Assembly (NCBI GenBank): GCA_015231405.1
Contig: JADGBR010000023.1
Location: forward strand, 1-56,037
From: Candidatus Omnitrophota bacterium
Lineage (GTDB): Bacteria; Omnitrophota; Gorgyraeia; Tantalellales; Tantalellaceae
Length of the DNA: 56,037 nt
Direction: 5' to 3'
Shown: positions 48,405 to 51,116 of the stretch, piece by piece
How positions within the stretch are numbered: position 1 is the first letter of the stretch
Layout: the number at the start of each line of letters is the position of its first letter
Made by a program: the position numbers and the translations under genes
Notes under the pieces: model-generated
What the model saw: only the letters and a program-made list of their open reading frames with translations
Databases searched by the model: none
Told to the model about the DNA's origin: nothing

Positions 48405-48461
48405 AATGCACTTGGCTGTCAGCTTTCAGATATCGGCTGTAAGCTTAAAAAGGAGGAAGTA

Positions 48462-49025
48462 ATGATGAGAAGAAGACCTAGTGAAAATGAAAGCGCCCAG
48501 GAGCGTGAAGAAGAAAGATATCTTGACGTCAACGCCGCGATGCAGGGTTCGTTACGTTTTGACGATCCGGTGAATCTTCGGATCAGCGGGAAGTTCGAAG
48601 GGATGCTTGATACCAAGGGGAACCTGATCATAGGTCAAAAGGCCGAAATAAAAGCCGATATCACCGGCGAGTGCATTGAGATAGCGGGTTCGGTTATGGG
48701 AAATATTAAAGCCTCCAAGATACTCAGGTTGAAAAGCTCAGCCAGGCTCGACGGCGACGTTGAAACCACGAAACTTTCGATCGAGGAAGGGGCTGTCCTT
48801 ATCGGCCGGGTCAGGATGGAAACGGGCGGCACTCTGGGAGTGCAGTCCCAGGAGACGAATATAATGGATATCAACCAGGTCGCCAGATATCTTGAGGTAG
48901 ATCTCGGAAAGGTAAGCGACTGGGTAAATAACGGTATGCTGCCCGGGGTGTCCCGGAACGGCGCGTGGATCTTCGATAAAAGGAAGATCGACGAATGGAT
49001 AGCTCAGGGAAAGACGCGCAGGTGA
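48462..49025 (+). CDS. Bactofilin fused to a helix-turn-helix DNA-binding domain
   Basis: The 187-residue product has a charged N-terminal tail, then a bactofilin beta-helix core (about 22-120). Its repeating turns read RISGKFEGMLDTKGNLIIGQ, EIAGSVMGNIKASKILRLKS and RLDGDVETTKLSIEEGAVLI. Bactofilins polymerise without nucleotide into membrane-associated filaments. Unusually, residues 135-182 (IMDINQVARYLEVDLGKVSD and WIFDKRKIDEWIAQG) form an excisionase-type (HTH_17) winged helix. The RBS AAGGAGG is excellent, with two adjacent ATGs. Six bp later comes a second gene with the same type of HTH. A link between filament and DNA is a reasonable inference; nothing here proves DNA binding. Confidence 0.88.
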   Translation: MMRRRPSENESAQEREEERYLDVNAAMQGSLRFDDPVNLRISGKFEGMLDTKGNLIIGQKAEIKADITGECIEIAGSVMGNIKASKILRLKSSARLDGDVETTKLSIEEGAVLIGRVRMETGGTLGVQSQETNIMDINQVARYLEVDLGKVSDWVNNGMLPGVSRNGAWIFDKRKIDEWIAQGKTRR

Positions 49026-49031
49026 GGATAA

Positions 49032-49391
49032 ATGGATAAATTATTGACGCTTGAGGAGCTATCATATTATTTAGGGGTCAAGGAAGACAGGCTTGTCAAG
49101 CTGATCGAGAAGGGGGTCATCTCCGGATATCAGATAGGGGGGGAGTTCCTCCGTTTCCGTAAAGATCAGATAGACGCCATAAGGCATGAGATAAATTCCA
49201 GGGTCAGGGATTCCGACCGCATCACGGTGAAGGAGCACAGAAAGAGCCTTACCAATAAGCGCAAGGTCGTGGGCGAAAAGGATAATTTTTTTGACAGGAT
49301 CGCGGATTTTATTTACTTTAAGGATTTTTACATTATTACCGGCGTGATCATCTGGCTTCTGTGCTTTTTCATTCTGAAAGAATTGTCATAG
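49032..49391 (+). CDS. Tail-anchored excisionase-type HTH protein
   Basis: The 119-residue product starts with an HTH_17 domain (5-52; LLTLEELSYYLGVKEDRLVK, IGGEFLRFRKDQIDAIRHEI). A basic linker follows (55-85), then a C-terminal membrane helix (FYIITGVIIWLLCFFIL, about 99-115) with only four residues after it. This puts the DNA-binding domain in the cytoplasm on a membrane tether. It starts 6 bp after the bactofilin-HTH gene, with GAGG as RBS. Its HTH resembles that in the bactofilin fusion. The domain may bind DNA or, as in some MerR-like adaptors, act as a protein-contact module. Confidence 0.85.
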   Translation: MDKLLTLEELSYYLGVKEDRLVKLIEKGVISGYQIGGEFLRFRKDQIDAIRHEINSRVRDSDRITVKEHRKSLTNKRKVVGEKDNFFDRIADFIYFKDFYIITGVIIWLLCFFILKELS

Positions 49392-49403
49392 TAAGTATAG
49401 TGA

Positions 49404-49562
49404 GGAATCAAGGATCCGGGAGTCAGAATCCAGAACGACAATGAGATTTCTGGAAAATTGAATAGTGGTTTTTTGGTTGGGCAAAATGAACCCAAATCTA
49501 AGAGTCCTGCGCCAGTATTCCGGATCCTGTATCCTGTATTCTGGATTCTGTATCTTGTATGC
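49404..49562. repeat. Word-repeat inverted element (AGAATACAGA type), copy 3
   Basis: The left part (ATCCGGGAGTCAGAATCCAG) opposes the right words CGGATCCTGTATCCTGTATT, CTGGATTCTG and TATCTTGTATGCTG across a loop of about 75 bp. It fills the gap between the tail-anchored HTH gene and the PDZ gene. Confidence 0.82.
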
Positions 49563-49596
49563 TGTTTAAAATGATGCGATATATTGTTTAAAAACC

Positions 49597-50559
49597 ATGA
49601 CAAAGTTCAGATATTTCATTTTCGCCGCGTTACTGGCAGTGCTTTCTCTTGATTCCCGCGCCGATACGGTCTTTCTCAAGGACGGGACGAGGATACAGGG
49701 CGTGATCCTAGATGAGTACAGCGACAGGGTCCTGGTCTCCACGACCGAGGGGGAGAAAAGCGTTTTAAAGGACGATATCTGGAAAGCCTCTTACAGCGAT
49801 GAGATAAGGTCTACCTTGCATAAGGCCAGGAACATGGTTAGGCGGGGAAAACTTACGGAAGCGTACTCTTACTACAAAAAAGTTTCGGAGCTTGATCCGG
49901 GTAATATCGAGGCCGATATACGGATCGAGTTCCTTCGTAAGAACATAAAGAACGGCGTCCACGATAAGGTTTGGGACAATATCGAGATGAGGACCAGCGC
50001 GCTTTCGGGCGGGCGTTACGATCCGGCATTCGCCGTTAAAAAGGAAAGATATAAATTTTTCCTTTCTCCGGGCGAACCCTTTGTGACCGTCAACGCGAAA
50101 GTTGAAGACGCCGAGGGGATCGTATTCCAGCCTAATAGGCTTACCAGCGGTGACAGGATAATATCCGTCTGGGGGGCTAAGACCGCTTACCTGAGCGTGG
50201 AAGAGATAGCCGGGCTTCTGGCCACAAACGGCGACAACAAGGTCGTTTTCGAAAGGGACGTGGACGTCGCGATGGGAAATCCTCTCCGGGGTTTGAGTGT
50301 TTTCCGGTTCTCCGGACGATACAGGGCCATAACGGGCGCGTCACTTGAACTGAACAATAAAGGTGTCGAGGTCATGAAAGTCGATCAGGGGGGACCGTTC
50401 TCCCTGGCCGGGATCATTCCGGGTGATATAATCTCTTCGGTGAACGGGGAAAGCATTAAATACACACCTATTAAGAAAGTCTTTCAGAGGATAGAGGCTG
50501 GCGCGGGCTCTAAAACAGTATTCAGTATCCAGAGAGATATCACTATTTGGAATAAATGA
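49597..50559 (+). CDS. Exported protein with TPR-like and PDZ domains
   Basis: The 320-residue product has a signal peptide (YFIFAALLAVLSLDSRAD, cleavage near 22). A small beta unit follows (TVFLKDGTRIQGVILDEYSD), then a helical TPR-like stretch (KARNMVRRGKLTEAYSYYKK, about 74-120). The C-terminal half looks like two PDZ domains. The last is the clearer: ITGASLELNNKGVEVMKVDQ, GPFSLAGIIPGDIISSVNG. No protease motif is present, so it is probably a periplasmic scaffold or sensor. It overlaps the HAMP gene by 4 bp, suggesting that the two form one signalling or envelope unit. Confidence 0.8.
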   Translation: MTKFRYFIFAALLAVLSLDSRADTVFLKDGTRIQGVILDEYSDRVLVSTTEGEKSVLKDDIWKASYSDEIRSTLHKARNMVRRGKLTEAYSYYKKVSELDPGNIEADIRIEFLRKNIKNGVHDKVWDNIEMRTSALSGGRYDPAFAVKKERYKFFLSPGEPFVTVNAKVEDAEGIVFQPNRLTSGDRIISVWGAKTAYLSVEEIAGLLATNGDNKVVFERDVDVAMGNPLRGLSVFRFSGRYRAITGASLELNNKGVEVMKVDQGGPFSLAGIIPGDIISSVNGESIKYTPIKKVFQRIEAGAGSKTVFSIQRDITIWNK

Positions 50560-51116
50560 GCAATAGAGACCAGAGACAGAGGACAAGGCTTGTAATCGTG
50601 AGGGGATTCCAGGTAAGGTTCATAATCCTTATTGTGGCGTTCGTGCTCCTTACGGCCCTGGTCTCGGGATATACGGTTTATTACTACATATGGAAGCTGA
50701 TAGGGGATAAGCTCAACGGTGTATACCCCCAGGCTCATCTGGTCGACATGGTAGCCAGGGTTAACAGCGTCCTTATATCAAGGTTTCTTCTCCTGGTGCC
50801 GCTTGTCGTCCTGGTGGGGCTTATATTTTCCAACAGGATATCCGGTCCGATATATAAGATGAAATTGTTCCTTTCCTCGATTTCGGAGCATAACGATGAC
50901 GGCTCCCTGGTAGAGCTAAGGGAGGAGGACGAGTTCCACGATGTGGCAGAGGGGATAAACAGGATCGTGAACAGGCTCAGGTCCGAAAAGAGAAAACACC
51001 GCTCCGTCATGGTGAGTATGGGTAAGGAGATCGACTCTATCATTCCGGGGCTAGGGGATGAAAGGGCCTCCCGCGAAGCACTTGAGTCACTTAGGGATAG
51101 GATCAAGGCGCAATAA
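50556..51116 (+). CDS. Two-helix membrane protein with HAMP domain
   Basis: The 186-residue product has a membrane helix at about 22-46, a short periplasmic loop (47-73) and a second helix at 75-92. A HAMP domain follows at once (SNRISGPIYKMKLFLSSISE, 92-145), then a short helical tail. No kinase, methyl-accepting or cyclase output domain follows. Such stand-alone HAMP proteins may signal through a partner. It overlaps the PDZ gene by 4 bp, so the periplasmic PDZ protein is a likely partner. The gene ends about 200 bp before polA. Confidence 0.82.
   Translation: MSNRDQRQRTRLVIVRGFQVRFIILIVAFVLLTALVSGYTVYYYIWKLIGDKLNGVYPQAHLVDMVARVNSVLISRFLLLVPLVVLVGLIFSNRISGPIYKMKLFLSSISEHNDDGSLVELREEDEFHDVAEGINRIVNRLRSEKRKHRSVMVSMGKEIDSIIPGLGDERASREALESLRDRIKAQ

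Follow-up and report, generated by a model that had tools for sequence, protein, structure and literature searches.

A bactofilin–winged-helix fusion and its tail-anchored winged-helix neighbor form a candidate filament–membrane coupling module in Candidatus Omnitrophota

Bactofilins are widespread, and there is still little understanding of how they select their partners and come to the membrane. The global consensus of their N-terminal membrane-targeting sequence is MFSKKKK, and in BacA the role of this sequence can be taken over by the bitopic client PbpC (PMC12448750). In Myxococcus xanthus, the C-terminal extension of BacP recruits PadC (PMC5703909). The HTH domain of RodZ binds MreB, not DNA (PMC6946637). 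Winged helices (wHTHs) that do bind DNA are represented by BldC, in which K26 and R30 contact bases, T27, T29, W31 and K33 contact the backbone, and H46, R47 and R48 contribute contacts from the wing; the substitutions R30A and H46E each abolish DNA binding, and RacA uses the equivalent of R30 (PMC5859096).

Two adjacent genes, termed A and B, were analyzed in a 56,037-nucleotide stretch of DNA (the window) from a 3.66 Mb genome of Candidatus Omnitrophota, a phylum placed in the PVC group by NCBI taxonomy. The features of the pair are as follows.

48462–49025, + strand: ORF A, bactofilin–wHTH fusion, 187 aa; both Pfam domains matched at E 0.01 in 66/66 scanned orthologues
48525–48812, + strand: bactofilin beta-helix domain of A, aa 22–117 (PF04519, E 5.7e-24)
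48828–48851, + strand: flexible linker of A from core to wHTH, about aa 123–130 (pLDDT <50)
48864–49010, + strand: C-terminal winged helix of A, aa 135–183, acidic, DNA-contact residues lost (PF12728, E 1e-8; fold; residue test)
49032–49391, + strand: ORF B, tail-anchored wHTH protein, 119 aa; HTH_17 matched at E 0.01 in 67/67 scanned orthologues
49041–49178, + strand: N-terminal winged helix of B, aa 4–49, acidic recognition helix and basic wing (PF12728, E 3.1e-6; fold; residue test)
49305–49334, + strand: juxtamembrane motif of B, DFIYFKDFYI, family consensus DF[FLW]YFNDFYI (column frequencies, paired loci)
49332–49388, + strand: single C-terminal transmembrane helix of B, about aa 101–119 (Kyte-Doolittle hydropathy)

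The first-pass annotation had read A as a bactofilin with an excisionase-type winged helix at its C-terminus, and profile and fold comparisons agree with that reading. A scores 84.6 bits against PF04519 (curated cut-off 27.9) and 35.7 bits against HTH_17, PF12728 (curated cut-off 27). AlphaFold2, given 66 sequences, models A as a beta-helix (about aa 20–120, pLDDT block means 90–97) followed by a C-terminal winged helix (block means 81–89) made of helices 137–144 and 148–156, strands 163–165 and 168–172, and helix 173–181, the topology published for BldC (PMC5859096). In Foldseek searches with this model bactofilins rank first, followed by BldC, RacA and RdfS; the matches also include CbpM bound to a J-domain, a case in which the same fold serves to bind a protein. 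VIA-align gives the bactofilin core a Z of 18.3 to the Thermus thermophilus bactofilin 6rib, a filament structure, and of 16.0 to BacA (2n3d), and aa 131–184 a Z of 8.4 to BldC. A PDB sequence search agrees with Foldseek and VIA-align on the domains of A, and RacA (5i41/5i44) and BldC are among the closest solved relatives of its wHTH by both sequence and fold. Ice-binding proteins, carbonic anhydrases and other beta-helix proteins matched by VIA-align were set aside as common architecture only.

The position that forms the polymerization interface in other bactofilins (F130 of BacA, F105 of TtBac) is L, F, I, M or V in all 161 A proteins scored. No clear transmembrane segment was found in A proteins. 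A hydrophobic residue at position 2–3 together with at least three basic residues at the N-terminus, which resembles the known membrane-targeting sequence, occurs in 53% of them, a figure subject to uncertain start codons, and in this half of the family the N-terminus could itself bind membrane.

B begins 6 bp after A and was likewise correctly recognized as carrying the same domain type with a C-terminal membrane anchor. It scores 27.8 bits against HTH_17 (curated cut-off 27) and matches the excisionase profile TIGR01764 ('excise') at E 1.7e-8. Its wHTH was modeled in an in-frame A–B fusion with stops read as Gly, an artificial read-through device in which AlphaFold2 folds both winged helices and reaches a pTM of 0.41, with no usable inter-domain placement and no conclusion on docking; VIA-align relates the B domain to MerR-family winged helices at Z 7.0–7.5. 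The C-terminal segment, aa 101–119, has a 19-residue Kyte-Doolittle window of 2.09. Across 169 B proteins, 97.6% have a window of at least 1.6, ending a median of one residue from the C-terminus. Just before this helix, DF[FLW]YFNDFYI is near-invariant. One B lineage (L033, L039, L125 and L138) keeps the wHTH and transmembrane helix and has no aromatic juxtamembrane motif, reading EFIRAHGIYLL, for example.

The pairing reaches far beyond this contig, and the A–B pair belongs to the core of Candidatus Omnitrophota, being present in most sampled members. Contigs were scanned with phylum-specific peptides as queries; among the best 80 of 297 matches, named relatives are all Candidatus Omnitrophota or Omnitrophica, including Tantalella and Aadella, with the exception of one 'uncultured bacterium'. 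A and B lie side by side in most of 79 near genomes. The gene immediately after A is B in 36/36 loci from relatives, in all of the best 80 of the 297 scan loci, in 30/30 loci from other classes of the phylum, and in 56 of 57 further loci; these sets overlap and reduce to 169 unique A–B pairs. The check suggested earlier, whether a tail-anchored HTH gene is always adjacent, thus gives one exception, L219 in genome G115. There A (L219:1390–2022) is followed by an unrelated dehydratase-like gene with no adjoining B, and the B match of that genome (E 9.7e-22) lies elsewhere in it or beyond the range of the locus. A filament former and a membrane protein with a common wHTH-type module, as first described from a single contig, are therefore a conserved unit.

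The two genes differ in how far they stand alone. A bactofilin match was found in 40 of 59 relatives; one of the 40 (G022) is a fragment elsewhere, and the other 39 carry A. In 38 of these 39, A is the sole bactofilin; the remaining genome, G049, has two and 8% contamination. Of 33 genomes picked mainly for the absence of A, 31 have no bactofilin match. Extra bactofilin matches that end before the wHTH occur at G068:C26, G049:C74, G059:C85 and G137:C112. The B profile matches 341 of 352 Omnitrophota genomes at E 0.001 or better, the weakest of these matches being probably ordinary HTH_17 proteins. Six genomes have B without A or any other bactofilin (G008, G024 and G058 of family f7, G026, and G047 and G091; loci L208–L212 and L215); in five of them B sits in its usual slot after tsaD or mgtC, and the neighborhood in G008 differs. 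In family f17, A is absent and B matches are weak or absent. Single absences of A or B are uncertain in draft genomes; the pattern recurs within families. A thus comes paired with B, and B also occurs on its own. That B is found without A, and A almost never without B, is what an anchor (B) and its client (A) would show, and the persistence of B without any bactofilin implies that B has a function or partner beyond A.

In the best 80 of 297 loci the conserved order is gat–ctpA–tsaD–[mgtC]–A–B–larB. Upstream of A lie gatA, gatB, ctpA, often a polysaccharide deacetylase, and tsaD; an MgtC-like gene immediately precedes A in 69 of the 80, and larB-like and larC-like genes often follow B. The genes that we take to be gat, mgtC, larB and larC were named by reading their sequences, with no family search behind the names. 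The window has no MgtC-like gene in 48405–48461, and tsaD is directly upstream of A. The suggested link to mobile DNA is contradicted by this setting: a mobile-element or excisionase (Xis/RDF) role was ruled out by the housekeeping neighborhood of the 80 loci, by a search of viral contigs in which no relatives were found, and by plasmid matches that cover the bactofilin core only.

Other features of the region were recorded. Downstream of B, window positions 49597–51116 encode two proteins, one of 320 aa with a PDZ domain and an apparent signal peptide, the other a 186-aa membrane protein with two helices that resembles the HAMP region of sensor kinases; polA follows. Among the best 80 of 297 relatives, 19 have a cluster of such HAMP-like proteins close to B. 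The intergenic stretches 49395–49600 and 48405–48460 contain short imperfect repeats, read by eye, of the types 'attctggattctgtatcttgtat' and 'ggctgtcagctttcagatatcggctgtaagctt'.

Neither winged helix is a recent copy of the other. In a tree with canonical HTH_17 domains the A domains form one clade and the B domains nearly one, A and B domains from the same locus share a mean identity of 23%, and the distances between A and B exceed those of either to canonical HTH_17. Recent duplication of one wHTH into the other gene is ruled out on these grounds, and the two genes seem to have acquired their domains independently.

A and B are proposed to form a filament–membrane coupling module in which B docks the bactofilin filament via repurposed winged helices, a reading to which we assign a probability of roughly 0.55. 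A would polymerize via its bactofilin core, giving a filament that displays winged helices along its length on flexible linkers. B would be held in the cytoplasmic membrane by its single C-terminal helix, with its wHTH facing the cytoplasm. Both domains belong to the MerR/excisionase superfamily and, having shed their DNA contacts, would serve as protein-docking modules. The wHTH of A would dock on that of B, perhaps head-to-tail as BldC protomers do on DNA, and B would therefore recruit and orient the filament at the membrane, possibly with a role in cell shape or wall growth. This reading is favored because published precedents (RodZ–MreB, BacA–PbpC and BacP–PadC) cover each of its steps. 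A more specific version, a phylum-wide device in which two DNA-binding-type winged helices were independently turned into a docking pair between the only bactofilin of the cell and a tail-anchored membrane adaptor, a RodZ-like solution from other parts, falls a little short of even odds.

Pairing of the two HTH domains had been one suggestion of the first-pass annotation; it survives as the preferred reading, with weak support for direct docking from coevolution. Column pairs between the two winged helices are enriched 1.6–1.9 fold among the top inter-protein couplings. When the BldC interface was mapped onto the pair, the set joining the head of A to the tail of B exceeded randomly drawn sets of columns, with p 0.035 when the mean was scored and 0.0095 when the top three were (uncorrected, with four arrangements and two statistics tried on an alignment of about 140 effective sequences), and the other three arrangements did not stand out in column permutation. 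The Arg22–Glu16' salt bridge of BldC is not kept in the mapped A–B pair. The same method missed an intra-domain hairpin, and bactofilin–B distances correlate as well as wHTH–B distances. Because the hairpin was unrecovered and phylogeny not fully removed, the coevolution support is counted as weak.

These data also bear on a different arrangement, in which A and B make no mutual contact, each binding instead to a third partner such as a membrane enzyme reached via the juxtamembrane motif of B, and are co-located as they serve the same complex. Such an arrangement would fit a motif about as conserved as any other part of B, the survival of B after loss of A in several lineages, and winged helices that are not recent mutual duplicates. 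Strict adjacency and the mild coupling between the winged helices suit direct contact slightly better, and docking on a third partner is considered unlikely.

To judge whether the winged helices bind DNA, their contact residues were compared in an alignment that held 123 domains from A, 124 from B and, as controls from genomes of this phylum, 34 canonical HTH_17 domains; one intended control, L172, was left out after it proved to be a B protein. The equivalent of the base-reading R30 is acidic in 102 of 123 A proteins (83%) and basic in 7, versus basic in 25 and acidic in 1 of the 34 controls (Fisher 1.6e-15, A versus controls). In B this position is mixed, with 58 basic and 35 acidic residues among 124. 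The equivalent of T27 is Thr or Ser in 34/34 controls, 12/123 A proteins and 4/124 B proteins. Over the whole domain, the mean net charge of the controls is +3.85, that of A −2.78 and that of B +0.44; the corresponding values are +1.35, −0.69 and −1.30 for the recognition helix and +3.15, −0.59 and +2.58 for the wing, which in B is basic and keeps an invariant arginine. The suggested link to DNA thus runs against an acidic A domain that has lost the BldC contact residues and against an acidic recognition helix in B, although the B wing is basic. Judged from these residues, A very probably binds no DNA in the manner of BldC or RacA. The same is probably true of B, with room for doubt because its wing stays basic.

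A RacA-like tether, in which one or both winged helices bind DNA with little sequence preference and the filament and membrane protein anchor the chromosome to the membrane, has to be weighed against the same residues. The nearest solved relatives of the A domain include the chromosome-anchoring RacA and the DNA-coating BldC, and the bactofilins of M. xanthus position ParABS via PadC (PMC5703909). The basic B wing with its invariant arginine would also fit, and the RacA domain itself is not net basic over the mapped range. Yet net charge is above zero in just 1 of 123 A domains, the base-reading residue is mostly acidic there, the Thr/Ser phosphate contact is gone from A and B, and no chromosome-segregation gene was recognized in the conserved neighborhood of the best 80 of 297 loci, so that a chromosome tether appears improbable. 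Still more doubtful is a role for B as a membrane-bound transcription regulator, its wHTH still binding DNA and the A filament clustering or sequestering it: B does exceed the cut-offs of the HTH_17 and excisionase domains, has the basic wing and invariant arginine, and persists without A, but its recognition helix carries −1.3 against +1.35 in controls and only 4 of 124 proteins retain the Thr/Ser contact.

If the docking-pair version is correct, A would be, to our knowledge, the first bactofilin with a dedicated folded membrane receptor. In a phylum whose members are mostly uncultured, one bactofilin has become fixed that carries a folded interaction domain and is linked to a membrane gene. 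The apparent novelty lies in combining a bactofilin whose folded domain would serve for docking with a membrane partner dedicated to it. In keeping with the initial impression that no such system had been described, full-text searches of published articles, few of them from subscription journals and most judged by title, abstract or context, gave no description of a bactofilin–HTH fusion beside a membrane HTH protein. Should the two domains dock, they would provide a compact, reconstitutable model of filament–membrane coupling and, with RodZ as the first, a second example of a DNA-binding fold that became a cytoskeletal adaptor. The residue comparison also carries a warning that genes annotated as 'excisionase family DNA-binding protein' in Omnitrophota may not bind DNA.

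Each of the closest known systems shares part of this layout. The A C-terminal domain has the fold of BldC and RacA, and BldC oligomerizes head-to-tail through that fold; the DNA-binding residues present in those proteins are lost in A and B, and neither protein is fused to a bactofilin. In the BacNOP–PadC–ParAB system, a bactofilin C-terminal extension also recruits a specific partner encoded nearby (PMC5703909). However, the partner of BacP is a soluble ParB-like protein, bound by a disordered extension, whereas A has a folded wHTH and a membrane-anchored neighbor. BacA and PbpC of Caulobacter crescentus likewise join a membrane-bound bactofilin to a bitopic partner protein (PMC12448750), but BacA has no winged helix and PbpC, which binds BacA by its cytoplasmic tail, is a cell-wall synthase, whereas B, a small adaptor, has a folded domain and lacks any enzyme part.

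RodZ–MreB offers a further likeness, a bitopic membrane protein whose cytoplasmic HTH is bound to a cytoskeletal filament instead of DNA (PMC6946637), as proposed here for B and A. B has one transmembrane helix after its HTH domain, as RodZ does. The HTH of RodZ is HTH_25 and that of B is HTH_17, of the MerR/excisionase type; HTH_25 (PF13413) was found in none of the 67 B members scanned, which rules out B as the RodZ of the phylum, as do the separate HTH_25 (RodZ-type) genes elsewhere in most sampled genomes. Canonical small HTH_17 genes occur within a few kb of an HTH_25 gene at G000:C11:300716–306940, G002:C117, G004:C83, G010:C62 and G011:C8. B differs from RodZ also in having its anchor at the extreme C-terminus with no extracytoplasmic domain, and the filament here, unlike MreB, is a bactofilin that bears an HTH of its own.
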